Shown: one piece after another, positions 26,567 to 56,100 of the stretch
Layout: each line of letters begins with the position of its first letter
How positions within the stretch are numbered: the first letter of the stretch is position 1
Source: Cymbomonas tetramitiformis
Taxonomy: Eukaryota; Chlorophyta; Pyramimonadophyceae; Pyramimonadales; Pyramimonadaceae
Reading direction: 5' to 3'
Assembly: GCA_001247695.2 (NCBI GenBank)
Contig: LGRX02035260.1
Span: forward strand, 1-64,000
Length of the DNA: 64,000 nt
Notes under the pieces: model-generated
Database searches by the model: none
Told to the model about the DNA's origin: nothing
What the model saw: the letters and a program-made list of their open reading frames with translations, nothing else
Translations under genes and position numbers: made by a program

Positions 26567-26613
26567 CGGCGAGTGCAGACAACCTCGTCAGTCATCCGAC
26601 TGAAGATGTTGAT

Positions 26614-29600: not shown

Positions 29601-32484
29601 AGACTGCCTTTCAGAGAAATGGAGGGGCCTTCGGGTTTGGTGTAACCCTCCATATAACTCCAAGCACATTACGGTGGAGGCGATTTTGAACAAGTATATC
29701 GCAGAATGGAAGGCAGACCCAGAAAACACCTCAGCAGTCTTCGTTCTACCAGATCACCAGTCCAAGCTCCCCGCGTGGCGCAAACTTTTCAGAAAGGCCA
29801 ATATGCAGATCGTGGAGGTCATCCCTACTCACGATGATAAGGGCGAGCCCAATCAGTTCTTCGAGAACCCAGATGGGAAGGCCTTCGACCTTCGTTGGCC
29901 TGTTCTGATAGTACACGCCCCTCCCGCCAAACCACAGCCAGCACGCGTGAGGCACCCGCGAACAGCCCCCGCTGTGATAAGGACAGGTGAGGCAGCAGCC
30001 TTCAGAGACGCAACCTCCCAGCAGTCGGACTCAAAGTTCCTGCGTGCGTTGAAAGCGGAGTACACCCGAGAGGGGACACTTCGTTCGCTGCGGGAGAAAG
30101 TGAAGGCGGCACCACACCAATGCCTACAGGACTTCAGGCTGGTGGGTGAAGTGGTTTGGAGAACCGCAGCAGGAAGATATCAGTTGGTGCTGGGGGAGGA
30201 CTCTCCTCTTCGAGAAGTAGTGATTCGCCATGCTCATGAGTCATTGTCCTCAGGCCACACTGGGCGAGACAAGACTCTGGAGAGGGTGCTGCGACGCTTC
30301 TATTGGCGTGGGGCCGCAGAAGATGTGGGCACCTGGGTTGCATCCTGCGCAGTGTGCCAATCAGTGAGACCAAGGGGAACTTACCCGGATGGGTTGCTAA
30401 ACCCTCACAGCATCCCGAACAGGCCATGGCAGGATGTCGCGGTGGACTTCGTCACCGGCCTGCCGGTATCAGAGAGGGGCAATGATGCTTTCGTGGCTTT
30501 CACCTGCAAGCTGACGAAGATGGTCCACGTTGTGCCGATGAACTTCGGCGACAGCTCCGCAGCTGTGGTGGCCAGAATCTACTTTGACTCGGTGTGGCGC
30601 TTACATGGCGCGCCTATGAAGATTGTCTCTGATCGAGATCCACGGTTTCAAGATGCTTTCTGGCAGGAACTCATGAGACTGATGGGTGTGAAAGTGGCTC
30701 GTACCACGCCGTACAACCCTCGGTCTGACGGCCAGGCGGAACACAGCAACAGGGTTATTGAGGACATGCTCAGGTCCTTTGTAGACGCCAATGTGGAGGA
30801 CTGGGATCTGTTCACCACTAACGTGGAGTTCGCGATCAATGACTCCAGGAGCGAATCTACTGGTTTCACGCCGTTTGAGCTGGTGTTCGGGTTCTCGCCG
30901 CTGTCGCAGTTGGACCTTTTCCTGGAGGCCGCGCAGTCCACCGCCGGACGACGAACTGGGGGAGTAGGCACCGCACACGAAGTGGCTGTGAAATTTTCGT
31001 CGCAGCTGCGGGACGCCAGACAGCGGTTAGAGCTGGCTCAACAGCGACAGCGCGAACAGTTTGATCGCAGGCACGGGCAGCGGGAGTATGCTGTTGGAGA
31101 TCTGGTCTGGATAGAGGCGAAACACCTTACGGAGAAGGTGATGGATCGCTCCATCTGTAGGAAACTGACCAAGCGCTGGCATGGACCAGTTCCTGTGACC
31201 GAACGCTTCTTCAGCGATGTACAGATGACCATGCCAGAGGCCGACAGAGGAGCTCCAGTAGCCTACCGCCTACGCCTCCCTCCTCACTGGCGGATTCACG
31301 ACGTGTTCGCTCAACATCGCCTCAAACCGTACACCAGCGGTCAAGATGCTTTTGCCGCACGCGATCACCTAGCAGTACCTGAAGAGGTGGTAGTGGACGG
31401 TCAGAAGGAAGCACACGTTGAGCGCATCCTTGCACGTCGAGTGCGGTCTGTTCGAGGAAAGGAGGTGGAAAAGTGGAAGGTTCGCTGGACTGGCTACTCC
31501 AAAGCTCACGACCAGTGGAGGACGCGTGACAAACTTGAACGCGGAAGTCCGCTTCAACAACTTCGTGAATTCGAGCAGGCGAGACTGCACATGGAAGCGC
31601 AAGTCCGCGACGAAGCCACTCGACGACGCGAGCAGCGTGGCCGCCACTCTGCTCAAGCCGGAATGACACTGGCCCACCTCATCACTAATCCCTGCGATGA
31701 ACTGGACCAGCTCGAACAGATGGAAGATGATATCCCCCTGCCGTGGGAGCGCCAAGAGCGCGTAGAAGATGGGTCGTTGGCACTGGTGACAGAGCTGCTG
31801 GCAATACAGACAAAAACAACCCGCACGCCCAGGATTCTCGTACTTTTCAGCGGTACTGGCTCAGTAGAGAGGGAATTCCTAAATTGCTTCCCCTCCGCCT
31901 CAGTAGTGACCCTCGACTCCGGGCATATCTGGCAACCCACTCATGTGTGTGACATCCTGCAATGGGACTACAGACAATACCCGCCTGGATTCTTCGATGT
32001 TATTTGGGCAAGTCCCCCCTGCAGGCAGTACAGTCAAGCGCGCACCACTGGTGGACCCCCTGACCTTCCCCAGGCTGACAAAATCGTACGACGAGCATTG
32101 CAGATCATTGACTACCTGGAGCCAAAACATTGGTTCATGGAAAACCCCAGAGGTCGCTTCCCTAACGCGCTACGGCTTCGCCCTATGATGCGCCAGCTTC
32201 CCCCACCGCTGGTGTGTACCTACTGCATGTACGGTACGCAGTACATGAAACCCACCTGCATATGGACGAACTCAGCGCCACCCTCGCCCCTGCTACGCTG
32301 TACTACTTCAACACCGTGTGCGTGCAGATGGGCAACCGGTGCTCATCCAGAAACTGCTCAGCTTGGACCTCACCCGCAGCAGACTGGAGCAGGTCGATCT
32401 GCGAGTGTATATCCCGTGCCAGCGCTCCTGCTACGACAACTTTTCCGACATTTACGCCTCCGCGACACTGAAGACCCGCTTTAG
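26614..32484 (+). CDS. Pol polyprotein: PR, RT, RNase H, Dam-like, integrase, chromodomain, C5-MTase
   Basis: The frame is open upstream of 26548 without an ATG, consistent with minus-one frameshift expression. The aspartic protease has DSGA at 26842. The RT runs ~27600-28230 with FIDD at ~28069. RNase H is ~28510-28900 (TDASGIALGG). A Dam-like adenine methyltransferase region lies at 29484-29930, with FDVDACCDFGGRN and NPPY at 29644-29655, followed by SAVFVLPDH. The integrase has an HHCC finger at ~30220-30365 and a D,D,E core at ~30436-30780 (AVDFVTG, SDRDPRF, GQAEHSN). A chromodomain lies at ~31406-31570 (WKVRWTGYSKAHDQW). The C-terminus (31829-32300) is a C5-cytosine methyltransferase-like domain: FSGTGS (motif I), SPPC at 32011-32022 (motif IV, catalytic Cys) and ENPRG (motif VI, with ENP instead of the commoner ENV). 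The Dam-like and C5 domains are extras to the standard gypsy set. Confidence 0.93.
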   Translation: MLDEEFYAACRQTLEECREASDNLLPNLKCKSIRTDGGVQWKTDIEGTLAAAHDEEGPLLLVFYATLRGHTVKVLIDSGASDNFISEQSAKRCGLTTRAGSEMRVTLADGSVKITGATAYAKFNTHTTTGTYTENALALRILPLGIQVDVILGGRWLRSHSPVTLGYEGNGSVSFLRKSRSGKIGDRVTITGCSPGKASGDRSPKGTACAGLVDEVFLTPAQLKKYLVYAETQKLLGNDDPEIQPAWLMVAEKSPDDTASAFAATAIDSENAEPAADTEDAEVSPEWTLKFQDFWGEEYKKEMTTALPNIDGLRHDPQDEANINLDPELSKKGPPCQRIYKKSAEELRQLRERVETLMSKGYIRPSSSPYAAPCLMVPKPGNPKELRLVIDYRLLNRQTVKDKYPLPDIQMMFDEMQGAKFFSSFDAVDGFWQVPMAPGDVEKTAFTTQMGSYEWLVMPQGLQNSPSQYQRRMQRALGHLPFVRIFIDDVVVFSNTAAEHYEHVKQLLLTCREKGVFLKRSKCQLLKKSLRFLGHCISADGCRPQHDKVAAVRDWPELETVTHVRQFLGLAGYYRRFIHCFSEIAQPLTRLTKSDVPWEWGPMQQWAFEELKKALTSAPVLALPNIKGAADGTAPFVVQTDASGIALGGVLMQDNGDGLGLRVIAYESRQFSAAEQNYHTGERELGALHHCTTVTWRHYLIFTNFRIQGDHRPLEWLMEPGRELSRRQARWYMDLVEVGVPRMEYIKGALLLVPDALSRRPDFKDKDVREGLKEAGVIDPTSDLPKDPLATLESECFSSSPPAAHPHWAQTVDCWLSAVETLSVAEQAMDMGETIALVNPKLYKGMKEDHLDFDMPDWPEADSAKPTEAPHEPPDRAPPQIRITRSMARAGKVSTTPAPPQLASPKTRTPTSRADASEAPTEKVPVSSPPPQQAPQQSAPSPVLHPQKRQTPPEDSQNWRVRAEYSSKYAEKFGPFDVDACCDFGGRNRQADRFWTDCLSEKWRGLRVWCNPPYNSKHITVEAILNKYIAEWKADPENTSAVFVLPDHQSKLPAWRKLFRKANMQIVEVIPTHDDKGEPNQFFENPDGKAFDLRWPVLIVHAPPAKPQPARVRHPRTAPAVIRTGEAAAFRDATSQQSDSKFLRALKAEYTREGTLRSLREKVKAAPHQCLQDFRLVGEVVWRTAAGRYQLVLGEDSPLREVVIRHAHESLSSGHTGRDKTLERVLRRFYWRGAAEDVGTWVASCAVCQSVRPRGTYPDGLLNPHSIPNRPWQDVAVDFVTGLPVSERGNDAFVAFTCKLTKMVHVVPMNFGDSSAAVVARIYFDSVWRLHGAPMKIVSDRDPRFQDAFWQELMRLMGVKVARTTPYNPRSDGQAEHSNRVIEDMLRSFVDANVEDWDLFTTNVEFAINDSRSESTGFTPFELVFGFSPLSQLDLFLEAAQSTAGRRTGGVGTAHEVAVKFSSQLRDARQRLELAQQRQREQFDRRHGQREYAVGDLVWIEAKHLTEKVMDRSICRKLTKRWHGPVPVTERFFSDVQMTMPEADRGAPVAYRLRLPPHWRIHDVFAQHRLKPYTSGQDAFAARDHLAVPEEVVVDGQKEAHVERILARRVRSVRGKEVEKWKVRWTGYSKAHDQWRTRDKLERGSPLQQLREFEQARLHMEAQVRDEATRRREQRGRHSAQAGMTLAHLITNPCDELDQLEQMEDDIPLPWERQERVEDGSLALVTELLAIQTKTTRTPRILVLFSGTGSVEREFLNCFPSASVVTLDSGHIWQPTHVCDILQWDYRQYPPGFFDVIWASPPCRQYSQARTTGGPPDLPQADKIVRRALQIIDYLEPKHWFMENPRGRFPNALRLRPMMRQLPPPLVCTYCMYGTQYMKPTCIWTNSAPPSPLLRCTTSTPCACRWATGAHPETAQLGPHPQQTGAGRSASVYPVPALLLRQLFRHLRLRDTEDPL

Positions 32485-35644: not shown

Positions 35645-35648
35645 GATT
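35645..35648. repeat. Target-site duplication GATT, left
   Basis: GATT directly precedes the left inverted repeat and recurs directly after the right one at 44630-44633. Four bases are few, so the support comes mainly from the inverted repeats. Confidence 0.65.
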
Positions 35649-35684
35649 AACACACTATTCGATGAAAAGGATATTCTCATGTGA
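35649..35684 (+). repeat. Left terminal inverted repeat
   Basis: AACACACTATTCGATGAAAA is perfectly inverted at 44610-44629. Beyond it the two arms share GA.ATT.TCAT.TG with scattered mismatches. Confidence 0.85.
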
Positions 35685-35912
35685 AAATGATATTGCCTTA
35701 TTTACCTCATGATAGGATTAAAAAGCCGCATTTCAACAGTCAAGAACATGCAAGTGCAGGTTGTGCATTAGATTTAATGGTTTTTATGGTACAAATTTGA
35801 GGTCAAATGCACTTTTTCGAAATCTAGGAGGAGTGAAAACACAAAGAACTTTTGACTCAGAATCTATATACACGTTATACACATATTATTTACATGTTTT
35901 TTTCGTCTTGCT

Positions 35913-38900
35913 TTACGCGTCCACTTCAGGTGCTACCGCTACCGCTACGCAATTATCAAAAGCTTCGTCTTCATCGGAATCATCCGATTCATTCAAGTCA
36001 CCTAGGTCCTTGCGCGTGCGTTTGGATTGTTGTGCAAGCAAAGCGACGACTATCTGCGCGTATTGCTCGTTCGGTATACTCCGTTCGGGGTCTTTCGCAT
36101 CCACATTCCATGCCAGCACTATTTCATTCTTATCGAAAGTCTCGGTAGACGGTCGGTGCCCCGGTGGCGCTGCGAAAGCTCCTGCGTGACTCGCAAGCTG
36201 CTTGCCGAGGTGCTTCTTCTTGGTGTCGGTGTGCTTTTTGGGTTGGAAATAGCGATATAGCAGCTGTTGAGTTGACGGATAGCGCGCATCCACCTTCACC
36301 AAGTACAACGGATCCGACCATTCGCTTCGCTTCAGTTGTACGCGGAAAGCGAACTTGTCGTTTTCAGATTCCACCGCGAGAGCCACTGCAAAGCTGCCGA
36401 TTGTCATCTGGCCGTAGGTGACCTCCCACTGCGCCACTGGGCGTTGTCCACGTACTGCTCTGCTCGCTTTTGGGCTCGACCTTGGTGTTTCCGTTTACCG
36501 TTGTACACTTCTATCGGCGCTCGATCAATTCGGCGTTGGATGCGCACCGGTATAGCGGGGACGGCGGCAGCCCCGGCAGCTTCTATCGCCAACGCGGGCG
36601 CCTCTATCAGTCGAACCAAGGTGGCATTGCGCTCGATGGCGATTTTCTCGGGATGCTGGAAGGGTATCGCGGGCGCTTGACATTCTCCACCAGCAGTTAG
36701 GTGGCGCTGTTTCTCGATGACATCCTCGCGCCAAAACTTTTCGTGCACCTCCGTGAGCTTTGTGCCCAAAATGTCCTTCAACGCCTGTAAGGTATGCTCA
36801 AGCTTTTCGATGCCTTCTTCGGTAAAAGGAATCGGCTTGATGTATCCAGGCCCCGCGACAGGGGGTGTAGAAACAAGCTTTGGCAATGGAGTCTCGGGTA
36901 ACCATTTTGGTGAAATGGAATACTGTTTGTACTGCATGCCCACTTCGCCGTGCTCGTTCTTCTTGAACTTGAAAGCCTGCTGTGCCAAAATATTGTGGCA
37001 ATCGAAGACGTGACCATCAAACCAAGAGCTGAAGTCGAAGATCTTCTCGGTGTGCTCGCATATTACACCATCCGTAAAGGATTCTTGTGCGACCTCTATC
37101 ATCTCGTCGAGCGTCCAAGCTTGCTTGCGTCGTAGACGCACGGAGAAGCGTGAAAACATCTGGTCAATGTTCTCGTGCGTATGTCCCACCAACAGAAAGT
37201 TGAGTTTCGCCTTGCGAAAGACGTCCGTGTGCACCAGCCAAGCTGCGTATGCCAACATCAACTTGCTCTTGTTGGTGCTCACATTGTCAAGCTGTACATA
37301 CAATACTTCCGGCATCGGGTATGAATTTTCCCCGTCCCCGTTGCGTCGATGCTCTTGAATGCGGAGGATATCCCGTGCAAAACGTTGACAAGGAAGTTCG
37401 CATCGTCCTTGAAGTTGGCGTAGTTGAAATCCATGAAGCGGCCCACGTTCTCGATCATGCTCCCCATGTTGTGCACGTCAAGGAAGTCCTTAGAGTCCAG
37501 ATGTTTAGGGATACGTCGAAGTGTGGCAGTCGGGTGGTCCACTGCGTCATGCCATCGATGATCACCGAGGCATACTTATGCCAAGTTTTGTTCATGGCAA
37601 TGCTCTTGGTCATATTCGCTTTACGACCATGTTTGTAGAACTTCTGGCGCCCCGCTCGTGCGATTGCATGATGTTTGTTGAGAGGCCCGTTGTATTGCGC
37701 TGTGCATGATACACAAATTCGGGTCAGTGAACAAATTACATAAGCATATAAACACATCACAAAGCTATTCATGAATATTCACCTTTTTGAGATTTGGTTA
37801 AGCCTTCCTTCAATAACTTGAAGGACGCGCAAACATCGCAGTGAGAAAATCGGTTCACCGATGGAATCTTGAGCCACTTGCTGCAATCTTCTTCAAATAT
37901 TTTGTACCAGTAACTGAGAGAGAGCTTTTTGCTCTCCTCATCCTCACGCGCAAGCCCTCGATGTACTCGTCCCACAGCTCTTCGATGGTCAATCCATCCG
38001 AAAGGTGCTTCTCGGGTTTGTGAGGTTGGGGTTGTCCGTATTCGTCCGCGTATTTCTCGAGCCATGCGACGACCGACTCGCGTTTCAGGGAAATCTTGCG
38101 GTTGTCCTCCTCGTACGTCAATCCATGAACAAACGTGTGTCGGCCCTCGAGCACGCGTGTCCGACAGTCGTGAAGATACCCGTAGCTGATGCCGTAAGCC
38201 ATATAGTAGAACTTAAAGCACACCTGTTACAAAACAAAAGACACCGTCACTCAAAAATTGTTAACAAATTATCCAAGGAAACGCATAAGGGTTTTTATAG
38301 GTTGGCTGGATCTAAGACGCTTGGGAGACAACCCCAGCACTGCACGTCTGCAGGCGGGACGGCCGTCGCGTGCTCGTCAGCACTCTCCAAACCACGCCTT
38401 AAATCTGCGCAACCTACACCCTTAGTGGGAATCGAACCCACGAGTGCGAGGTTCATAGCCTAGCGCCGTACCAACTCGACCAACGCGTCGCGAATGTACT
38501 TTATGAAATTTATTTAGAAATTTATGATACAATATTCCACATTCCTGTGATGAACAACATTACACAATCTATCACAAGGTCCAAGAAAATTTTCGCTTTG
38601 ACCAGAGGCCGTTCATTAGCTAATGAACGGTTCCCGCAGCCAAAGTGTCTAATTGTGAGTCGCGCTTTGGCCAGAGGCCGTTCATTAGCTAATGAACGGT
38701 TCCCGCAGCCAAAGTGTCTCATTGTGAGTCGCGCTTTGGCCAGAGGCCGTTCATTAGCTAATGAACGGTTCCCGCAGCCAAAGTGTCTAATTGTGAGTCG
38801 CGCTTTGGCCAGAGGCCGTTCATTAGCTAATGAACGAGTTCAAAAATAAACATACCTGCTTCTTGGCCAAAAAGTATTTGAAGTCGAATTTGTCTTCAGA

Positions 38901-39572
38901 TCGTAAGCTGTTTTTTAGCAAGTCCTTCACGAAGTATTCCTTCCTATCTTTTTGCGACATGCTGAAAATATTTTCGCGAAAAGACTTAATATCTGCCGAT
39001 GAGAAAGATAGACAGCAGTGCGACTTGCAATTGCACTTAATGGTTTCTGCCATTGATATACTGTCAGCCTGCAAACGTCGCTGCTTGATACTAATTACGC
39101 CTGTATATTTCTGCTTGCGTATGTCGGATTCGTACGGTTTGCGCACAACAATCTGCTTGTTTACTTCACCGTTTAAACACCGAACAGGGTCTTCATTAAG
39201 CAAGTCTAAACTTGTCTCTGAGAATTCTGTATCAAGTCTGCTTTTTATCTCTTGTAAGTCAATTTCGCGCAAAGCGCGTGTCCCGGAAACGCGTGAAGAA
39301 TTAGAGCTAACTTCCGATCTAGACGTCAAAGGCGCGTTCCGAAGGACCAATTGCGTATTTGCGCTCGGGGCTATGCTTGGAATTGGCTCATGATCAAAGA
39401 AGTCAGCCCCTATTTCCATAGAATCTTCAATAACTATTCCCGGGCACGGTTTGCAGATAATCTCGCAACCCTCATCAAAAGTAATAGAAAACATATTTTC
39501 GTCAAAATTAGCCGTCATTAGCTTGTGAAGCCGTTTATTACGTTTTGAAAATGATATGGACTTGCGAGTCAA
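35913..39572 (-). CDS. DUF7869-like putative transposase, three exons, several frame breaks
   Basis: Exon 1 (38856-39572) starts MTRKSISFSKRN and contains a CNCKSHCC cysteine cluster. It ends at CAG/GTATGT. Exon 2 (37783-38223) follows a TTTTGTAACAG acceptor and joins in phase to give KKQ/VCFKFYYMAYG. It ends in a FSHCDVCASFK zinc-like motif. After an 83-bp intron (37700-37782), exon 3 (35913-37699) holds IIDGM (near 37555), VQLDNVSTNKSK (near 37290) and VGHTHENIDQMFSR (near 37175). These are the signatures of DUF7869-type proteins, common in large repeat families. I infer that the three acidic motifs could be a DDE-like active site. The C-terminus has an acidic tail. Single-base frame breaks near 37953, 37515, 37370 and 36430 mean this copy is decayed or carries base errors. 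Expected intact length is about 980 residues. Confidence 0.75.
38415..38495 (-). other. tRNA-like sequence (pseudo-tRNA or SINE head)
   Basis: The minus strand has an A-box-like TGGTCGAGTTGG and a perfect five-pair T-arm GTGGG/TTCGATT/CCCAC. A seven-base anticodon loop CTATGAA would give ATG. The acceptor stem does not pair and the anticodon stem has a mismatch, so I read it as a tRNA-derived repeat rather than a functional tRNA gene. Confidence 0.5.
38610..38836. repeat. Palindrome array A (four 69-bp units)
   Basis: Four tandem units with starts at 38610, 38679, 38748 and 38817 each contain the perfect 20-bp palindrome CGTTCATTAGCTAATGAACG. They are separated by a spacer with CCCGCAGCCAAAGTGTCT and GCTTTGGCCAGAGG. 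It lies in intron 1 of the minus-strand gene, just after the splice donor. Confidence 0.9.
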
Positions 39573-39842
39573 CGGAGAATTTCTATCTTTTTGGATCGAT
39601 CGATTCTCGATTTCAGCGCAAATGACACCAGGATATCTTTAAATCATATCCTTGATCTGAACAGACCGAATCAGGAAGCGACAGCAAATGTCATTTTTGA
39701 CAAAAATTGTCATCGATATTTGACATGTCATTTTTAGCCGACAGAAATGACCTACAATATTTTGCTAAAGTTACATCACTTTTTCAAAGTTCCTTCACAC
39801 ACACCCCTTTCACAGTTGACAGCCAATTTCTCTCATTTCAGT
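39573..39842. promoter_or_regulatory. Shared intergenic region of the divergent gene pair
   Basis: These 270 bases lie between the two start codons, so both promoters should be here. The motif TGTCATTTTT occurs twice (near 39690 and 39727), and CGATCGATTCTCGA lies near 39597. A related TGTCATTTT occurs in the right subterminal region of the transposon, which may mark common binding sites for an element protein. Confidence 0.5.
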
Positions 39843-42800
39843 ATGGCGACAGCAGAAACATTTCAAGCACTAAGGGAACATCATATTTTTCAGCAATATC
39901 TTGGCAACAAGTGGAGCATTGTTAGAACGCTTCAAACCGACAATCCTGCAGACACCTCGCAGTTGATAATCCACTCAGATGACCCAAACGAGAAGACTGA
40001 AGAAATGTTTTACAATTTTCCCCAAAACACCTCTCCGACTGTAAATGCAGACGGTAGCCTCCTTCCAGAAAAACGCGTAGCGTATAGTATAATTGAAGGC
40101 CAGACTCCAATTCTGTATTTCGTCGCTCTGAGGAACAACAAGCTTACTGTAATCGAACTGGACAGCGCAAACTTTGAGGAAGCCCTGAGCCTTCCAAGGC
40201 ACACGAATCGGCTTTCGGCTTATCAAAATTTGAAAAGTAGGGCAGAAGTAGAAGGAAAAAGCAAGGAATTCTTTCTAGCGAGCTATGTAAACACGGCGTG
40301 GAAAGCGTCGATTACAGCTCCTTTCTGGCAAAGCAAGAGGCCAGCGCCAAGGATTGATGACCTCGGCAGTGGTGGCGAAATACCTGTTGTACAGGCTACG
40401 GTACGTCCCTTTCGCCCCTTGAGCCTGTCCCTGGGCGGAAGGCGTTCATTAGCTAATGAACGCTTTCCGCCTCGAAACGCGCGCGCCTTGAGCGTGAACT
40501 GGGGCGGAAGGCGTTCATTAGCTAATGAACGCTTTCCGCCTCGAAACGCGCGCGCCTTGAGCGTGAACTGGGGCGGAAGGCGTTCATTAGCTAATGAATG
40601 CTTTCCGCCTCGAAACGCGCGCCTTGAGCCTGTACCGGGGCGGAAGGCGTTCATTAGCTAATGAACAGTTTCCGCCTCGAAACGCGCGCCTTGAGCCTGT
40701 ACCGGGGCGGAAGGCGTTCATTAGCTAATGAACGCTTTCCGTCTCGAAACGCGCGCCTTGAGCCTGAACTGGGGCGGAAGGCGTTCATTAGCTAATGAAC
40801 GCTTTCCGCCTCGAAACGCGCGCCTTGAGCCTGTCCCTGGTCGGAAAGCGTTCATTAGCTAATGAACGCTTTCCGCCTTGAAACGCGCGCCTTGAGCCTG
40901 TACCGGGGCAGAAGGCGTTCATTAGCTAATGAACGCTTTCCGCCTCGAAACGCGCGCCTTGAGCCTGTCCCTGGGCGGAAGGCGTTCATTAGCTAATGAA
41001 CGCTTTCCGCCTCGAAACGCGCGCCCTGAGCCTGTACCGGGGCGGAAGGCGTTCATTAGCTAATGAACGCTTTCCGCCTCGAAACGCGCGCCTTTAGCCC
41101 TGACCGGGGCGGAAGGCGTTCATTAGCTAATGAACAGTTTCGTCTTGTCCCAGGCTGCCAGGAGAACGGATGTGCAGCGTGCTGCCGAACGCGCCCTTCA
41201 AGGACCTGGTGGCTCCAGAGCGTTTACTGGAGCGGGCGCTAATGTGGATATGTCTCAAGTGGCCACCCCATCTGAGGCAAGGAAGGCAGCCGAGGAGGCT
41301 GCACATGGGTGGCACGCTACAGTAAGCTGAAAGTGGAGCATGCAGCAAAGTTAGAATATGAGGAGAAAGCTGAGCTGTGCAAGCAAATCGAGATGGAGCA
41401 CCGGTGGCCGAATCCGATGGATTTCGACGAGGCGGCGGAGCAAGGGAGTGTGTTTCGTCTCTCCATCAAATGCCTGTACCACGCGACGGGGTACGAGGCC
41501 TGCCGGGATCAAGAGAGGGGCTGGGTGAACGAGATCAAGTCCGGCATGAAGGAGAACCCGTGGGCCCCTTTCAATGAGGGTCTTGTTGCGATCGACGATG
41601 TCAAAACCCGTGCCGAATTCTCCCTGAAAAAAGCTCTGAAGGGAGAATACAGAGGCAAGGTTTTTGGGCACCAGCACTGTTATCAAGCCACCGACGAGTG
41701 TCACGAGGAAATCCCGTTGGAGATAGCTTTCCACTTCGAGAGCAAGATCTACATCGGTCTCACGCCTGACATGATTCGGTTCTTAGGCGAGATGCAGAAC
41801 CAGATCGACCAGAAGCAGAAAGGCAAAGACAACACTCAGTTCATGCAAGGGCTCCGTTCGACCCTTTTCGAAAAGCATGGGGTCGTGTACAAGGTTTACC
41901 GAGAAGCGTTGATCTCCGAGTTCGTCGCCAGCGTCCCCGAGGACACCGAAGGGGGTACCCCTTATCAACCTGGGTATTACGAGGTCGGAGGGCTGGTGGA
42001 AAAAATGGCGAGGTTCGAATCAGAGCATGGATTTTCAGTCCCGGATCCCGAGAAATATCCCAAGGGATTCCAGTACATCGAGAATGTGGAGACGTCTGAG
42101 CACGAGGGAGACCCTGAGGCACTCCCTGAGGTAGAGGTGACGGTGAAGGTGCTGGACGATGACATCACCGCTCGCCTCCATCGGGTCACAGATTGGTACC
42201 CCGTAATGTCTCACTTGAACCAGTCGATGGAGACGCATGTGAAGCAAGTAGCGATGTCCAAGCATTCTGTGTTCGGCGCCACGCAAATCAACCACTACTT
42301 CATGCACTGGACAATTGCCAATTTCCGGCCGCAGACGTGGGACCTCTGCGTTAGCATCATGGAGGCTTACAGAAGGTTTGACCTGAAGGGCATGAAAAAC
42401 CCTTTAGCTTCGAAGACCAAAAAGCGCAAGGCCTCATCTTCGCCCGCTAAGGGACCCGCCAAGAAAACTGGCAAAAAGGGCACCTCCAACCGACAGGTAA
42501 ATTACTTTTTACTTCTGCTTCAAACAGTGTTCTCCCTCCCAAAGCATCCTTTTCTATATTTTAACCCCTAAGCCGGTTTTTTTTTGGGGGGGGGTATGTT
42601 CGGGTCGTTGTGCATTTCGTTGCATATATGCAACATTTCTTGCGGAAACATGTCAAATAAAGTCATCATGTGAGAGGTGTCGATTGACCCGACAGTTTGA
42701 TACGAACATCCACCATCTTGTTTATTATATCCACTTATATATGCACATATTGCCCTTTGGGTCAAACGCCCTTTGGGTCAAAAATGACCCAAACACCGGC

Positions 42801-44356
42801 TTAGGGGTTAAGACATGCTAAAAATGTTTTTTTTACTTACAGATGGAAGACGAGGTGCAACGAGGAGGCGGGGACCACGGAGCGGGCTCGTCTAGAGGGG
42901 CAGGCATTTTGGTGGAAGAAGCTCAGTTTCTCCACAATGCCAAATCCATGGGTATGACGTTCTGGATTAACTTGGGCGGCTTGGCGGGGGAGGCGGAGTT
43001 CGACAAGGTGGACACGTATCTGCGCCTGATTATTAACAAGGAGTTGTCAGTAAAAGAGGGGGGCCAGATGATAAGCCAGTTCAAGAAGGAACGCATGGTG
43101 CAGAAGCACTTGGTGTCCGCGGCGGGATTGCAAACCTGGGACGAATTCAAGGCCGAGTTCACCCCCTACTGGAGCTCCCAAGAGAAAATCGAGTCGTTGA
43201 TCGGCTGCTTACCTTCAACTCAGGGGGGAGCGCGCCGGGGGGGGGTCTGGGGAAGTTCCGCACGCGATCTTGAATTACGTCGAGAACGCGCGGGCAAATC
43301 TCGCGGAAGCGCAGGCGCCACGCGCGGCTCACATCCAAGGCTTGCAACAGATCGAGGTGAAAGTCGACATCAAACTCTATCGGGAGGCACGGACCGACGG
43401 GCCGGAGCCTAAGGTTCCAGGAGAGTCAGGCCTGGAGGACGACGAGCCCACACATGAGACGAACGTGCCGATGTTCCCTCGTTGGAAGATCGTCAAGGGC
43501 AGCATGAACGATATGAAGGACGTCCCGAGGCTGCCCTTCACAGGGACGATCATCGACTGCAATTACGCCCTTGACAAGGAGAAGACTCCCGACGCGATGA
43601 CCAAGGAGGAGGTGCAACCGTTCCTGGAGTCTTTCAACGCCAAGACCACCGCCCCGGCATGGACAGTCGCTATCTTTTGCGGTTTCCTCCAACAAAACGA
43701 TTTCCTGGAGGTGATTGACAATTACTGCTCCGGCCGCGCGGAGCGGTTCTTCTGGCACAAGGGGAACGTGCACATGAATGAACCCCAACAAGTCCGTACG
43801 CTACAATGGCGTTGAATGTGGCGTCCTGGGGTACCATGTAAAGAGCGATGCCCAGGGGGAGTCTTCTAAAAAGCCGGAGTGGATGTTCAACTTTGATTTT
43901 GGGGAAGGTGAACGTGTGAGCCGCGCGTCACTTTTGCGCGGCTTCCCGGTTGTGCACCAGATGTTCAAACGCGACGGCAAAGTCGTGAATAACCATCAGA
44001 AACCCCAAGCTCTGTTGATGGAGCTGATCCAGTGCCACATGCTCGGTGACAATCCGGGCAAGACGGATGAGAACGGCCATCCACTCAACTGGATTCTCGA
44101 CGCTTGCTGCGGCGTCGGCTCGACGTCCATGGCCGCCATGAGGTGTGGTATGAACGCGATCGGCTTCGACCACGACCAGTACATGGTCAGCTCTGCGCAG
44201 CAACGGCTGATCAATTTCCACGCCGAGCCCGATCAGGATGCCGAGTTGAAGCCCAAAACGAAGAGCGAACCGACGGCGAAGGGGAAGGAAGCAGCCACTG
44301 CCGAATCTGAGGAAGAAGAGTTAGAAGAAGATGAGCCAGATGAGAATGATGAATAA
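39843..44356 (+). CDS. Three-exon protein with C-terminal beta-class DNA N-methyltransferase domain
   Basis: Exon 1 (39843-40400) starts MATAETFQALREHH and ends ACG/GTACGT. Exon 2 (41154-42496) follows CTTGTCCCAG and ends CGACAG/GTAAAT with a lysine-rich, NLS-like tail (KTKKRKASSSPAKG). Exon 3 (42843-44356) follows TTACTTACAG. All junctions are phase 0. The first two exons are of unknown function. Exon 3 has the beta-class order of amino-MTase motifs: a motif-IV position reading GTIIDCNYAL (43546-43575; DCNY where DPPY is usual), a target-recognition-like region, then NNHQKPQALLMELI (motif X) and ILDACCGVGSTSMAA...IGFDHD (motifs I and II, SAM binding, ~44090-44175). The C-terminal tail is acidic. 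Frame breaks near 41300, 43240 (a G-run) and 43790 suggest decay or base errors. The DCNY variant may weaken or alter catalysis. Confidence 0.75.
40401..41153 (+). other. Intron 1 of the methyltransferase gene
   Basis: The donor is ACG/GTACGT and the acceptor CTTGTCCCAG/GCT, joining phase 0 to phase 0. Nearly the whole intron is palindrome array B. Intron 1 of the divergent partner gene carries array A, a matching arrangement in two otherwise unrelated genes. Confidence 0.7.
40443..41136. repeat. Palindrome array B (eleven ~67-bp units)
   Basis: Eleven units have a period of about 67 bp. Each contains TTCATTAGCTAATGAA, mostly within the full 20-bp palindrome, set in a GC-rich frame (GGGGCGGAAGG on one side and CTTTCCGCCTCGAAACGCGCG on the other). 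GGCGGAAGGCG and CGCTTTCCGCC extend each hairpin, so every unit can fold into a stem of about 15 pairs. A few units have lost the perfect palindrome through single changes, for example near 40597 and 40671. Confidence 0.92.
42497..42842 (+). other. Intron 2 of the methyltransferase gene
   Basis: The intron is bounded by CAG/GTAAAT and TTACTTACAG/ATG. Its centre is a 243-bp TTAA-flanked MITE. Exon 3 opens with ATG, so it could also be translated separately, but the phase-0 junction supports one protein. Confidence 0.7.
42565..42807. mobile_element. 243-bp MITE with TTAA duplication inside intron 2
   Basis: The terminal inverted repeat CCCCTAAGCCGGT at the left is mirrored by ACCGGCTTAGGGG at the right. 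TTAA lies directly outside both ends (42561-42564, 42808-42811). TTAA target choice and C-rich ends fit piggyBac-type nonautonomous elements; Kolobok also uses TTAA. It has no coding capacity. The terminus resembles that of the larger element at 45179-46019. Confidence 0.8.
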
Positions 44357-44609
44357 AATAGTAGGATTTGTCGACCGCCCTGACTGATAGTATCAGTCAT
44401 GCCTCGACGGTATAGGGTGAAAAGTACTCTACTCGTAAACATTTGAATAAAGAATGATACATGTATGCATATTTCGGTGTTTTCATTGTACGCATACTGC
44501 ACTTTTCTACCGTGTTGCCTTTATGTATCCCTATTTCGCGCATAAATATCACTAACCCCTGATTTTTATGAAATATATATAAATCCAAAAATGACATATG
44601 ATAATGTCA

Positions 44610-44629
44610 TTTTCATCGAATAGTGTGTT
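44610..44629 (-). repeat. Right terminal inverted repeat
   Basis: This is the exact reverse complement of the left 20-bp terminus. It is followed by GATT at 44630-44633. Confidence 0.85.
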
Positions 44630-47467: not shown

Positions 47468-50400
47468 AAGAAAAAGAAAAAGAAAAAATGTGACTCTTCC
47501 TACTGGAAGCGTGATATTTGAAGGTGCACAGCTGTTACGCCTGCCCCTAGTCACATGCACAATCAAGGCGGCTTCTTACTGTTTTTTAGAGCCTTCTCCT
47601 TCTCCGTCCTGCTGTGTGAAATCAACATCTTGGCAGCCCATTCCACCGCGATGTTACTGATTTTCTTGAGGAGGGCCTCCGCTTCCTTCTTGTTGAAGCC
47701 GAGGTGTTGCGTGAGAGCCCTTGCGTTGTGTTCATACACCGACCCCGTGGTTCCGAAAACCATCGGGTGAAAGAACACCTTATAGCCCTTGGATCTGAGT
47801 AGCTCCATAAGGGGCTCATACTTGTTGAGTTTATCGTGAAGGGACACATACCAGCGAGTGTCCCACGTGAAGGCCACCTCTATGAGGTGGATTTCTCCCA
47901 CATCCTCCCTGTGGGTGTTTTCCGGCCTGCCTGGGGGGGCGTCCCTGACGTCCTCTGCCCCCTTGATCATGACAATATCCACAAAGTGTGGTATGTCGTC
48001 TGGGGGGTCCTTCGCCCCCGGGTGGTCTCTTCCGTCCCTACGGCACTGACCCCTTCTGAGTACGAAGTCCGGTATCGGGCGGGTACATTTGTTAGTCCCG
48101 TCGAGCCCAGCGTGGTGCGCGATCCAGATCGGACTGGCGCCCGTTCGTCCCTTCCTGATCGCTTCGTAAAGGGTCCTTGCCACTTCGTTGTGCCTGGCTG
48201 TGGCCATGTTCCTGCTGGTCTCATCTTTGCATCCAGCCAGCCTGTGTGCCGGAGTGTCCCTCCTCCCGCATAGGGCGCAGTCCGGGACCGGATATTTGTT
48301 CGGCCATATGAGGTGCTTTCTGGCAGTCGTCATGAGGACCCCAAACCGGCACCTTAGAATCAGGGACCTGAGCGTCGGTGGAGTAACCTTCCAGAAGTGA
48401 TTGGATATTCCTGGTATCGACTTGTCCTGGAGAATTTCCCGCGGGGGCTCCTCCAATCTTCTTCCCATGTGTGTCTCGACTGCGGCAGCGTCTGCGTGGC
48501 TTGTGGCGGCCCTGTCTCCGTTTCCCCGGTGCATGGCCTCCCGGTCCCTGTTTCTCTTTCTTTTTCTCTCCGGGGCCGCCTCCTGGTAGGCGTCTATCGC
48601 TTGTTGTGGAACGTCCGTCAGGTTCTGGAGTTCCGACTCTCCCAGGTCCATCTCCATCATCGAGCGGCACAGACCGTCAATCGGGTCCTCACGTTCTGCC
48701 TCCTCGATCGCTTGCATCATCTCTCTGTCTGGCGAGTTCATGGCCCCCCTCTCGTCCATGTCCAGAGGCGGCCCCCGCGTCTCATCGAATTCCCAGAGTA
48801 GGTCCCACTCGTCCTGAGTGGTCACTTGATCCCGCGGGTGTACCTGTTCCTGGTCGCCCGGCTCCCGTCGCTCCGGCGGGTCGCCCTGGCTCCAGGGAGC
48901 GTGTTGGAGTTCCTCCAGGAGCATCGGCTCCTGGAGATTCTCCCCTGGTGTCCCCATTTCCACGTTCTGTCGGCCCCGGTCGGGGCCTTGGGCTGGCCCT
49001 GGGGCGCCGGTCGTGGGGTTCTCTGTCATAGAGCCCTCTACTGAGAGAGCTCCCTCCCGATTTCCCCTGCCGGGTGTTCCCCATTCTTCCCACGGACTGC
49101 TCGGGGGCTGTAGCCATTTTCTCACTGACCTGTGCTGTGTCGCTTTTAGTGCAATCCTTTCTGCCACATACCTTTCCACCGCCCCCTCCCCTTGCAGGGG
49201 CCTCATCGATTCACCATCTCGGGCATTGGCCACGAGCGTGTACATGGTCCTGTTGTCCCATGGGTCAATTTGGGTGGTGCCCTCCTGGTTTTCTGCTGCC
49301 TGTTTGGCCGCCTCATCTGCCTTGTCGTTGCCCTTCACCCCCGTGTGGCTTTTGACCTTCCTGAGTGAGACCTTCGTTCCCTGGCTGTTATGCTGTTCGA
49401 CCAGGGAGAGTATATCCTCAAGCAAATCCCTGTGTCTATGGCCCTCCATTGTGTGGGGTCTGGATAACATGTTGAGTATTTGGTACATACTGCAGAGGCT
49501 GTCCGTGCAGATTGCTATCTCGCCCGGTGTTGTGCATTCTCTGGCCCTGAGTGCCGCGTGGATCGCCAGGAGTTCCGCCCTGTTGATGGTGAGGTGTCCA
49601 CCCGTCGACCACGTGCCCCTCCAAGTTCTGGGGTTTTCATCCCCTCTGGGGTCCCAGTAGGCCGCTCCCACTCTATGTAACCCCCCTTCTTCCTCTGGGT
49701 CCAGCCGCGATCCATCCGTATAGAGGAACGAGGTTGCATCCCAGGCTTTGTTGATTTTCTCTAGGGTTCTGGAACGTCCGGTTTTGTGCTTGATGGGACA
49801 CGTGGGGAACCTCTCCCTTACTTCCGTGTGTCCCCTGTCCCTGTCTTGTCTGCTGAAGAGCATGGGAGTGCGCTCCATTGCATTTAGCCATCTGGCCCTC
49901 GAGTCTTCTTTGATCTTGTCCAAAGGCCATGCCGTGTTCGCCGCATGGTACTCCGTGATCGTGACCTCGGCGAGTCCCCTGTCGCGCCATGTTTGTCTCA
50001 TGGCCCTCGCCGCCTCCGGGGTGCGGTCTTCCTTGGGGACCTCACCCCCTTCGTTCCCCCATCCCTGTCTGCGCGACATGCTCGGTATTTCCCATTTTCT
50101 CATCGGGTGAGGGTCGAAGATCATGTCGTGTTGACTAGTGCTCTCCATCGCGTTTTTGACCGCCGCCATGTCTGACACTGCGTCCGAGGTGTGGACCCTC
50201 GGGTTGGCCGGCCTGAGGTTCCGAATCGTGTGGTACTTACGGACCGTGCAGTACGTGCTGCGCTGCAGGGCCTTCCCGACTAGTTCCGCTGCCCCTTCTG
50301 GGTCCGGGCAGAATTTTTGCCATCCCTCTGCGTTGGCAACAACTAGGATCCTAACTCCCCAGTTGCTGTAGTCCTTCTTCGTGACGCCTGATACTGTGGT

Positions 50401-53400
50401 GCCTCCCCAGTGGTCTGGGGGGAGGAACGTAAAGCTTTTTCTTGGGATCACCCCAAATTCATGTATCCTAGTATCTCCATACCTCCTGCAGTATGCCTTG
50501 GCTGGCGTTCTCGTCCAGGCCGGATAAATTCCCACCCCCAGTACCGGGGTTTTCGCCATGGTGGACATCAGGGCCTCCTTAAGCGCTTTGTCCAGGTCTG
50601 CCGCTGTGTACTCCGGATTGAACTCGAAGGCGCCTAGCTCTCCCCATTGGGTGTCCCATGCAGACCCTTTGGATCCGAAAATCTTGTCCCTGTCGAACTT
50701 GGAGCAGTATGTCGCCGTGTGGCTGTGTACGTTGAGCGGCGACGCGAATATCTCCGCTTGGATCCCGAAGGCTTCCTGGAGCGCTTGCATAATTTCTGGA
50801 GGGAGCGTCCAGTGATTTTGCAGTGCGGTTTTCTTGACTTCCTCCTCCTCCTCGCAGGAATATCTTTTGAGCAGGAGGACTACTTCTGTGGCGAATCCGT
50901 GGACTGTGCCCAGCTGTGGCTCCCGCTCCTCGAAGAACCGCCGTCGCTCTTCCCCCGCCTTTGTATGGGTCTGATCTGCGCTGTCCGTGCCCGCCGCGGC
51001 CACATATCTGTCGTAGAGCCTATCGAGTACCTCTTCTTTGAGGGCGCCTACCATCTTGCCTCGCTCGTCGTGCGCGAACACGTGGTGCCTGCCTGTCTCC
51101 GTCGTGAGCGTGCATTTGCCCGAGGGTGCTGCGTCCCAGTCTGGGTTAAAGGGTTCGGTGTCTATGTTGAGCTCGGTGACCCCCGGCCAGTAGCGGGCAT
51201 GCCTCGTGGGAGCTCCTGACAGCGGTTCTCTTTCTGTGGGTCTCCGAGCCTGCTGTGCTTCCCGCTCCTTGTTGTGGAACGTGTCGGTCTCTCGTTCGGC
51301 CCGGCTCGGGTTCATTCCCGCAATTCCTCCTGTCAGCAGTGTGTCCTCCTCGACCCATGCTTCCCCCTGTGGGCGAACTGGCCCAAGCAGGTATTCCCTG
51401 CTTCCCCAGTGTGTCCTAACCGCTAGAATTGTGGTGCTCTCGGACGCCTCAACGGCCTGGGGTTCCTCCTCCGTTTCTTCGAGCACTTCCGGATTATTGG
51501 CAACCGTCGGGCCAGCGCCTACCGAGAGCTCCATGGTGTCGATCCTCCACCACATGTTCCTGCTCCGGCAGTCATTAACAGGGGGGTGCGTTGCCCATGC
51601 GACCTGTTCACTGCTTACGAGGTGCGTGGTCATCAGCCTAACCGCGTCCCTCGGGAATCCGATTTTGGCCGCATGCTGGAACAACTCCCCAGTCCTGACA
51701 TCTCCTTTGGACAATTGAGCGAGGACCCATGTCCTCAGCATCATGATCTGCGCCGCGGTCCCCTTCCATTTCGTGCCTCTGCCGTCTTCCAGGCTAACCT
51801 TTGTGACCCGGTGGGGGCTTGTTTCCCTCTGGGGCGTCTGCGCAGGCGGATTCGGCCTGGGTCTGATCTCCTCGCTCTCCACCGTGGCCTGGGGGCTTTG
51901 TATGATCTGCCTGGTCCTTTTCTCACCGACCTTCGGGAGCTCCCGGGCGTGCCTGGGGGTTGCTGGCACCGTGTTTGCCTGGGTCTGCCTGGTCGGGCTC
52001 CTCTCGACTTGCATTGGCCCCGCGCCAGCCTCTTCCTGGATTTCGTCATCCACTTCCTCGAAAGAGATTGGGTCATGAGTCTCTCCCTCTCCGTGGAACA
52101 CGTGGTGGCGCTCCCGTTGTTCCAATTCTCCTATGCGCGCCATGATTGGGCCTCTCATGGCTTTCCTGTATCCCTTGGAGGTCGTGGCTTCTCCGCCCAC
52201 CGGGGGCCCATGCAGCCCGATCCAGGACTCCCACTTCTCTCCTGTGGTGGACCTATTCCATTCCTGCCACTTGTCAATCATGTAGCACACCCAGACGCCG
52301 CATTGGTATCCGTCCCGTTGGTGTGCGACCCCCATGTTGGAGACCGTTACGTTGACCGGCGGCCATCCCGGCGGTCCTGCCCACTGTCTCAGCGCAGTCA
52401 ATAGGCGCGTGTCTTCCCCCCCCATTGGGTCGTAGAGGTAGATTGAAACACTGGTGTCCTCATTTTTTCCGAATAGGAGCACATTCCAGTGGCTGCCGTC
52501 GCAAGTCAGGACAAAGGAAAATCCCTCGTCCCGGACCGTTTCCATCGTGTTGCGCATCTGCGCCTCGTATTGTTCCGACTGCTCGAACTCGGTTCCGTTG
52601 AGGGCGTCCGCGAGTTTCGTTTGGTGCATCGACACTGTGTCCAAGCCCGTCGTGCAGAGGCTGTGGGTTTCCACTTGTATGGAGCTAAGCCACGCCTCCC
52701 TGCCTCTGGTGTCCGAGAAGACCCCTTCCGTCCTGTGCCTGGGGGTGCCCTCCCCCCGGGGCTCGTTTCCTCTTCTTCCTCCCCCTTTCAGGAGGCTGTC
52801 CGCATGGGACCCCTCAGAGCGGTTTCTCCTCATCGCCCTCCTGCTGTCCATCGCCTCCTTCTCGGTGATTCTTGCTCCAGCTCTGGCTGCGTGTCGCAGG
52901 TCTGAGAGGAATTTTTCCGCTTCGGTTTGCCTGGGTCTCACGCCTACGGAGTCCATTATCATGACTCTACCCCCTGGGTCCTCACGCAGGGTGGGTCTGA
53001 CTCCGATATCGTGGCATTTAAAGGCGTCTTCGTGGTCTTCTTCGTCCTTGGCGCAATAACCTGTCGTCATTTGTTTTAAGGCGTTTTTGGCTTGCATGGA
53101 GGTCGTGGGGGGTCCTCTTCTTCCTGCGTGCCACAGCGATCGCGGGCCCCATTTGGATTGAGTGGGGTGGAAGCCCTCTTCCCAAGTGGTTGGTTCTTCC
53201 CTTTCGGTCGCCTGGGGTTCTGCCAACCTTTGGAACCCTAGAGCGTTGTGTGCCTCTTTGGACGGCATAAACTGGGGTTTGAGGGTGAGGTTCTTCGGGT
53301 TGTCCCAGAATCGCGCGTCGTTGGGCTTGTCAGCGAGCGCTTCGCATATATATGGGTACAGCATGAGCATGAAGGTTCGCATGCGCCCTTGAAACCTGGC

Positions 53401-55596: not shown

Positions 55597-55608
55597 CTCG
55601 TTTGGGAA
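55597..55608. repeat. Target-site duplication of LINE 2, right
   Basis: This is the second copy of CTCGTTTGGGAA, adjoining the truncated 5' end. Confidence 0.88.
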
Positions 55609-56100
55609 TACTTTTCATTTTGCATTCTGGCGAATACTTTTCTGTGCATGTGACACACGACGACATTTCCCGAAGAATGAAAACATATTTTTCAGAGACA
55701 CAAAATTTTCAGAGACACTGACTGACCACCATTAGCATTACACCACGCGACAGCCACGTCCGATCGACACGCAAATTTTGAATGATTAAATTTGGATTTC
55801 AGAAATCAGAATCTGAGAATGCGATCCAACGAGGAGTACTTGTCGTCGGACCGATCGAACGTAAAGTACGCATGACACGGTGACACGTATCCAAGGTTTT
55901 AGGTTAAAAAGCGCTCTTAGTAGGTGCGAAAACGAAGCGCTGGACGCTCAACTACATACATACCCCCACGCACTGTTACTTGAATTACACCAAGTAAACA
56001 TTTTCCCCCACGTTCGCAACTGACGAATATGTATTCATAAAACCATACACGAATACCTATTCTTTTAGCTCTTGATTGAGCCCGTCAGCAGCCGCATCAG
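55609..56100 (+). repeat. Left arm of the foldback element, main block
   Basis: This block is inversely similar to about 62742-63085. The outer ~110 bp and the inner ~120 bp (CACGTTCGCAACTGA to GCCGCATCAG) match well; the middle is weakly conserved. No gene is present. Confidence 0.75.

Follow-up and report, generated by a model that had tools for sequence, protein, structure and literature searches.

A DUF7869 protein, predicted to be a transposase, and a methyltransferase-like partner share a probably undescribed kind of DNA transposon in Cymbomonas tetramitiformis

We analyzed a 64,000-nucleotide window of the genome of Cymbomonas tetramitiformis, a prasinophyte green alga (contig LGRX02035260.1, positions 1 to 64,000, forward strand), which contains an 8,981-bp transposon unit at 35649-44629. 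Its inverted ends match at 20/20 positions and it is flanked by GATT on both sides; the perfect 20-bp inverted ends and the GATT duplication reported in a first-pass annotation of this DNA are both exact. The two divergent intron-bearing genes described there are also present, gene A on the minus strand (39518 to 35913) and gene B on the plus strand (39843-44356), with introns predicted from sequence. Splice sites of both genes were placed by eye (GT/AG) and against L010, another copy of the element, and for gene A also against protein P0001, its nearest named relative (C. tetramitiformis, 95% identity); they are predictions only. The features of the unit are as follows.

35645..35648, no strand: left target-site duplication GATT, from sequence; 4-bp duplications in 16 of 19 copies
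35649..35668, plus strand: left terminal inverted repeat AACACACTATTCGATGAAAA, 20/20 against the reverse complement of the right end
35913..39518, minus strand: gene A, DUF7869 protein, predicted DDD transposase; frame breaks in the window copy
39518-38856, 38223-37783 and 37699-35913, minus strand: exons of gene A (GT/AG, protein P0001, copy L010)
36917..37324, minus strand: stretch matching DUF7869 (Pfam) in the longest open frame, residues 52-187 of open reading frame (ORF) 36404-37477
39843..44356, plus strand: gene B, methyltransferase-like protein; frame breaks in the window copy
39843-40400, 41154-42496 and 42843-44356, plus strand: predicted exons of gene B (GT/AG, copy L010)
43991..44200, plus strand: end of B matching N6_N4_Mtase, with S-adenosylmethionine (SAM)-binding motif I, LDACCGVGST (Pfam, homologue alignment)
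44610..44629, minus strand: right terminal inverted repeat, reverse complement of AACACACTATTCGATGAAAA
44630..44633, no strand: right target-site duplication GATT, from sequence

The genome searched for further copies comprised 851.7 Mb in 25,745 contigs. Copies with these ends, on which the first-pass proposal of a transposon depended, are numerous, about 850 by the count of the end 13-mer AACACACTATTCG. Specifically, this 13-mer occurs 854 times in forward and 858 times in reverse orientation, compared to 4 and 8 times for a reversed control, which rules out a chance inverted repeat. Among the end matches listed, 20 plus/minus pairs lay on the same contig; the 18 pairs less than 10 kb apart were taken, the two more widely spaced pairs (C977 and C1038) were not included, and with the window copy these gave a set of 19 copies. 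The terminal inverted repeats are 16-27 bp long in the 18 other copies, compared to 20 bp and perfect in the window copy, and the termini of this algal family read AACAC...GTGTT. Exact 4-bp duplications flank 16 of the 19 copies (15/18 plus the window copy); the duplication of L026 is 3 bp, and L017 and L019 have none. The 16 four-bp duplications are 16 different 4-mers, none of them TTAA. Because all 16 differ, the element has no fixed target motif, unlike TTAA users. For L024, a copy other than that of the window, the joined flanks with a single 4 bp match all 40 scored places (of 1,271 first-look candidates), with matches spanning 234/240 bases at 100% identity. This is the pre-insertion (empty) state of L024, seen directly, and it bears out, for one copy, the reading of the flanking repeat as a duplication. 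Insertion with a 4-bp duplication and mobilization of both genes as one unit are observed. By eye, L024 appears to have landed in the RNase H gene of a retroelement.

In the window copy, A and B are each broken by several frame changes, which may reflect decay or read errors; the published Cymbomonas assembly is a Nanopore/Illumina hybrid (PMC10675990). Every exon of L010 is open (A, 960 aa; B, 1134 aa), and the open exons in L010 and other copies rule out A and B as pseudogenes in general. Both genes are at least 95% covered in 15/19 copies; part of B is missing from L011 and L012, part of A from L018 and most of both from L019. Over exon 3 of A, divergence among seven open-frame copies (21 pairs) does not exceed 1.6% for synonymous sites and 1.1% for the others, and this near-identity suggests that the copies are young and were recently active. 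Exon 2 of B diverges by up to ∼10% between copies (L009-L026), with the proportion of nonsynonymous differences (pN) close to that of synonymous differences (pS), whereas exon 3 of A is nearly identical; L009 and L015 have nearly the same A, with B differing by 5%. Because copies share A yet differ in B, exchange of element halves is suggested.

The first-pass identification of A as a DUF7869 protein holds well above the curated cut-off: PF25273 matches ORF 36404-37477 at E = 2.4e-43 (148.4 bits against a cut-off of 26), and P0001 at E = 6.3e-48. No Pfam family besides DUF7869 matches P0001 at E up to 1. DUF7869 proteins are present in Chara, Riccia, Adiantum, green algae, land plants and many metagenomes. 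A search of the Cymbomonas genome gave 2,557 first-look candidates, of which 150 were scored and all exceeded the cut-off, so that there are at least 150. One annotated Cymbomonas protein, P0017 (CYMTET_16163), carries DUF7869 together with PF04937, which we take to be DUF659, and may be a gene-model fusion.

We aligned 80 of 87 DUF7869 proteins (leaving out P0017, P0020, P0026, P0059, P0073, P0089 and P0093). The acids of the three motifs picked out in the first pass (IIDGM, LDN..TNK and GHTHENID) are near-invariant: D230 is conserved in 67/68 sequences, D320 in 79/79 and D361 in 80/80, and position 358 is D or E in 79/80. From this alignment A is predicted to adopt an RNase H-like fold with the three acids, a D, D, D triad, at the right places, in line with the fold anticipated in the first pass; a prediction from nine close homologues gave a mean predicted local distance difference test score (pLDDT) of 47, and the 80-sequence alignment was used instead. 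Pfam searches with the 80 relatives (E up to 0.01) matched PF21056 (RNaseH-like) in one and gave three further single matches (crAss_THB, CRPV_capsid and DUF6793), none named a transposase. Searches of Protein Data Bank (PDB) sequences with A returned nothing useful, Foldseek against viral models had no match with E below 0.001, a relative of A was not found in scans of viral contigs, and Tudor-like matches to its C-terminal part (6wau, E = 1.4) were not significant. A viral element was rejected, since the scanned open frames of the unit matched neither capsid nor polymerase.

The C terminus of B in the window copy matches N6_N4_Mtase at E = 2.4e-5, with 24.8 bits against a cut-off of 26.7. 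Six homologues of B were found, four Cymbomonas proteins and two metagenome proteins, the nearest named relative being P0010 of C. tetramitiformis (87% identity). P0010 and P0015 also fall under the N6_N4_Mtase cut-off and P0014 lies over it (31.9 bits); P0010 further matches PHROG 67, "DNA methyltransferase," at 3.9e-13. P0014 is a metagenome protein and is 98% identical to a locus in this genome. The consecutive tags CYMTET_38921 (P0016, DUF7869) and CYMTET_38922 (P0012, B) are both on a 106,345-base contig. Motif I of B reads LDACCG[VS][GA]ST and is preceded by motif IV, as in the beta class, whose layout the motif names follow. Motif IV is DC[NV]Y in 6/6 aligned homologues; the catalytic (D/N/S)PP(Y/F/W) was not found. 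Thus, the beta-class amino-methyltransferase proposed in the first pass for this end of B is supported by the motif order, the SAM motif and the P0014 score, but the window copy scores below the cut-off and the PP is missing. Outside the methyltransferase end, Pfam (E up to 1) gives nothing for P0010 and one weak row for P0014 (MLKL_N, 0.021). PDB sequence searches with B gave only weak rows (E of 0.24 and above), and scans of viral contigs gave one 33%-identical stretch.

A second Cymbomonas family, represented by L031, encodes both genes (A 66% and B 52% identical) and has 28-bp perfect ends AACACGCTATTCGCAGAAAATGACATTA (end pattern AACACGCTATTCGC) and a TACC duplication. Between L010 and L031, the ratio of nonsynonymous to synonymous substitution rates (dN/dS) is 0.11 for A exon 3, 0.26 for B exon 3 and 0.19 for its methyltransferase part; synonymous sites of B exon 2 are saturated, with pN/pS of 0.47. 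A third family (L027 1-4811 and L028 1-4500) has an A that is 44% identical; its element ends were not found in L027 and L028, which did not reach the ends or any B. Of the 150 scored DUF7869 matches, 35 start 1.1-1.35 kb from a contig start, like L028, whose palindrome array is the contig end.

Relatives were also found outside the alga. In a scan of GTDB genomes, nine contigs contained DUF7869, eight of them in one bin labeled uncultured Trichormus. Because the B of L036 contains an intron with GT/AG borders and several copies occur at once, we infer that this bin contains a eukaryote. A divergent B relative lies on 5/8 contigs (L035, L036, L038, L039 and L041; E of 2e-11 to 2.5e-13), and L034, L037 and L040 are uninformative on B because they hold only ∼520-600 bases upstream of the A open frame. 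The methyltransferase end comes next, in order, on additional exons, with single scores that are weak: E of 0.0098 to 0.056 for the motif IV part (L041, L038 and L036) and of 0.00086 and 0.0012 for the motif I part (L036 and L038). Motif IV here is DIPY, aligned with DC[NV]Y of the alga. The L036 unit measures 7,724 bp, carries the ends AACACGATTGCGAGAAG / AACACGTTCGCATGAAG and is flanked by an AACA duplication; once its flanks are joined, a single open frame of 360 aa results, which looks like a retroelement polyprotein. L038 has similar ends and no duplication; hence one of the two bounded second-host copies has 4 bp. The ends in the two hosts are alike in AACAC and the following TTCG or TTGC, and in nothing beyond. 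The acidic triad is kept in every copy on the nine contigs that has its columns, the first column being absent from L041 and L042. L042 (1-1713), a DUF7869-like fragment of 28% identity on a contig labeled as a Flavobacteriaceae metagenome-assembled genome, lies beside a 2,186-aa open frame and is probably eukaryotic contamination.

The first introns of both genes hold palindrome arrays, with 15 palindromes in total, which the first-pass annotation had not mentioned. These and two further intronic features of the window copy are listed here.

38594..38840, no strand: intron 1 of A, array of 4 palindromes with core CATTAGCTAATG and 69-bp period, from sequence
40427..41151, no strand: intron 1 of B, array of 11 palindromes with core CATTAGCTAATG and 67-69-bp period, from sequence
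42563..42809, no strand: intron 2 of B, nested 247-bp inverted-repeat element with ends CCCCTAAGCCGG and TTAA on both sides, not part of the transposon
38290..38495, minus strand: intron 1 of A, stretch like a tRNA and a short interspersed nuclear element, by eye only

Perfect palindromes of at least 16 bp number 16 in the 8,981-bp element (15 in the arrays and 1 in the nested insert) versus 6 in the other 55,019 bp of the window. The core CATTAGCTAATG occurs 5-20 times in 18/19 copies and not at all in L019. In L031, the first intron of B has six palindromes of the TATCATTAGCTAATGATA kind and that of A has one, along with four further palindromes centered on CATTGGCCAATG; the third family has a different palindrome, GGGCGACTCATCCGCGGATGAGTCGCCC, in intron 1. 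Of the eight second-host contigs, seven lack perfect palindromes of at least 16 bp; L038 has three, which do not form an array between the genes, and its tandem rows reveal no recognizable inverted-repeat array. L035 has a tandem array of odd-centered inverted-repeat units between A and B, and in L034 the region upstream of A shows inverted self-matches. TTAA occurs once in L010 at the site homologous to the 247-bp insert. Searches of the window with ARAGORN and Rfam had no hits, the 38290-38495 stretch included.

In 15/19 copies, in the second family and in a distant eukaryote, a methyltransferase-like gene accompanies A. Because this distant relative in another organism has both genes and similar ends, the element looks like an old kind of transposon, one that may not have been described before. 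In our view, the unit is very probably a DNA transposon of the cut-and-paste type, autonomous and from a superfamily that has probably not been described, with A as transposase and B as co-transmitted partner. The fold and triad of A are predictions, and we infer A's activity as a transposase, cut-and-paste excision and all action of B. In this model, the RNase H-like domain of A would use D230, D320 and D361 (P0001 numbering), with E/D358 as an alternative third acid, and A would cut the element ends (AACAC...) and join them to the target with a 4-bp stagger, which would produce 4-bp duplications with no evident sequence preference. B, with a putative beta-class amino-methyltransferase domain, would travel with A; its most likely action is to bind element DNA, which it may also methylate, and the inverted-repeat arrays would be the likely binding sites of B or A.

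The unit is a real, well-bounded element and a new superfamily of a known class is probable, but a divergent branch of a named eukaryotic superfamily that acquired a methyltransferase has to be weighed. Sola, which makes 4-bp duplications, would be the first suspect, and some named superfamilies also make duplications of this length. We think such an origin unlikely: P0001 matches no other Pfam family even at E up to 1, its 80 relatives yield just PF21056 in one member and three single non-transposase matches, and the varied duplications exclude the TTAA users. The first-pass remark that no named superfamily with this pairing is known stands for Pfam and the freely licensed literature, Repbase sequences not included; papers from the Repbase team count 20-21 superfamilies with a DDD/E transposase. 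A reversal of roles, in which A would be an accessory and B the recombinase or end-binding protein that the element needs, could draw on B being as constant in the pairing as A (both in 15/19 copies) and on the lack of Pfam matches in P0010 outside its methyltransferase end. The predicted integrase/transposase fold of A and its invariant acidic triad make this highly improbable, and the DUF7869 proteins of Chara, Riccia and Adiantum may count against it as well, should B be missing there.

The first-pass proposal that the element carries its own DNA-modifying enzyme stands as far as the paired methyltransferase-like gene goes; with the PP lacking in Cymbomonas, a DNA-modifying activity is putative. 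Two observations weigh against methylation by B: the missing PP of catalytic motif IV, and a within-family pN/pS near 1 (0.94 for exon 3 and 1.09 for exon 2, 36 pairs each). The comparison of L010 with L032 gave 0.88 and 1.04 for these exons. Such values, which are biased because open frames alone were compared, may reflect relaxed or diversifying selection. METTL14 is a methyltransferase without catalytic activity whose role is that of a DNA-binding or assembly subunit. That B is likewise dead and serves only in such a role is a serious possibility, if short of an even chance, given DC[NV]Y in 6/6 homologues with SAM motif I kept. In favor of methylation, D and Y are kept in all six, the second host has a near-canonical DIPY at the aligned place, and the methyltransferase part is constrained between families (dN/dS 0.19). 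As for the palindrome arrays, they could be neutral, satellite-like intron expansions without a role in transposition, as the variable number of cores (5-20 in 18 copies, 0 in L019) and the scarcity of perfect palindromes in the second host would allow. We find this possible but doubtful, since in two families arrays recur in the first intron of A and in that of B, the third family has one of another sequence in intron 1 of A, and the second host has the L035 inverted-repeat array, which the perfect-palindrome count missed, and the L034 self-matches.

Several other mobile elements lie in the window. Two long interspersed nuclear element (LINE)-like ORFs, 6338-14110 and 47563-55614 (both minus strand), contain RVT_1, RNase H and also PCIF1_WW (PF12237, E = 2e-15 and 5.8e-20). 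PCIF1 is a cap m6Am methyltransferase, and we know of no LINE with a PCIF1 domain. A Ty3-like polyprotein with a chromodomain (26482-32484, plus strand) has a Dam-like adenine methyltransferase stretch (PF05869, 1.6e-7, over the cut-off) and a C-terminal C5-methylase-like stretch (PF00145, 2.3e-4, just under it). Methyltransferase-type domains are found in four mobile elements of the window, namely the transposon of gene B, the two LINEs and the Ty3-like element. A 224-aa open frame at 59850-60524 (minus strand) looks by eye like a hAT dimerization region, with no Pfam match at 0.001.

These data suggest a function, that of a transposase, for the large unnamed family DUF7869. Gene A belongs to Pfam PF25273, a family without an assigned function, and DUF7869 was not named anywhere in the literature searched, mainly freely licensed papers; titles and abstract starts in the same literature revealed no transposon-methyltransferase element of this sort. 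The published long-read assembly of Cymbomonas comprises 914.3 Mb with 43.6% unclassified repeats (PMC10675990). The text of that paper does not contain "methyltransferase," and the parts examined do not describe this element, which, as a presumed member of that class, probably accounts for part of the 43.6%. If our interpretation is correct, a DNA transposon family joins those mobile elements equipped with a base-modifying domain of their own, which raises the question of whether the partner marks the element's own DNA, controlling jumping or silencing.

Gene A resembles DDE/DDD transposases and retroviral integrases in its predicted fold, secondary-structure order and placement of the three acids, and the element resembles DDE/DDD transposons in its inverted ends and short duplication of fixed length. 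However, A has no detectable sequence family link to these transposases save the weak RNaseH-like match in 1/80 relatives, and it has a motif of its own, GHT[HD][DE]xID. KolobokP is likewise a DDD/E transposon with a second, enzymatic gene and makes 3-5-bp duplications, but its partner is a His-Me finger endonuclease (PMC9587614); Kolobok at large uses TTAA, whereas the duplications here are 4 bp with no fixed sequence, and the TTAA duplication of Kolobok and piggyBac is not seen among our 16 different 4-mers. The IS481EU families of Histomonas have TGT...ACA termini (PMC10045372), in contrast to AACAC...GTGTT here, and a motif described in PMC9587614 and PMC10045372 was not seen by eye in residues 320-361 of P0001, the one protein inspected. 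DNMT- and Dam-carrying retrotransposons are also mobile elements with a DNA methyltransferase domain, but they are LINE, DIRS and Gypsy retroelements (PMC5890265), unlike the DNA transposon with separate two-gene layout described here; the same paper mentions DNA transposons with DNMT in marine viruses. KDZ and other fungal DNA transposons carry TET/JBP dioxygenases (PMC12730594) and thus similarly travel with an enzyme potentially acting on DNA bases. Their transposases are different, the enzyme is a dioxygenase rather than a methyltransferase, Zisupton makes 8-bp rather than 4-bp duplications, and neither A nor B has a TET/JBP Pfam match. Unlike in those elements, the same kinds of transposase and partner are found here together in two families and two hosts.
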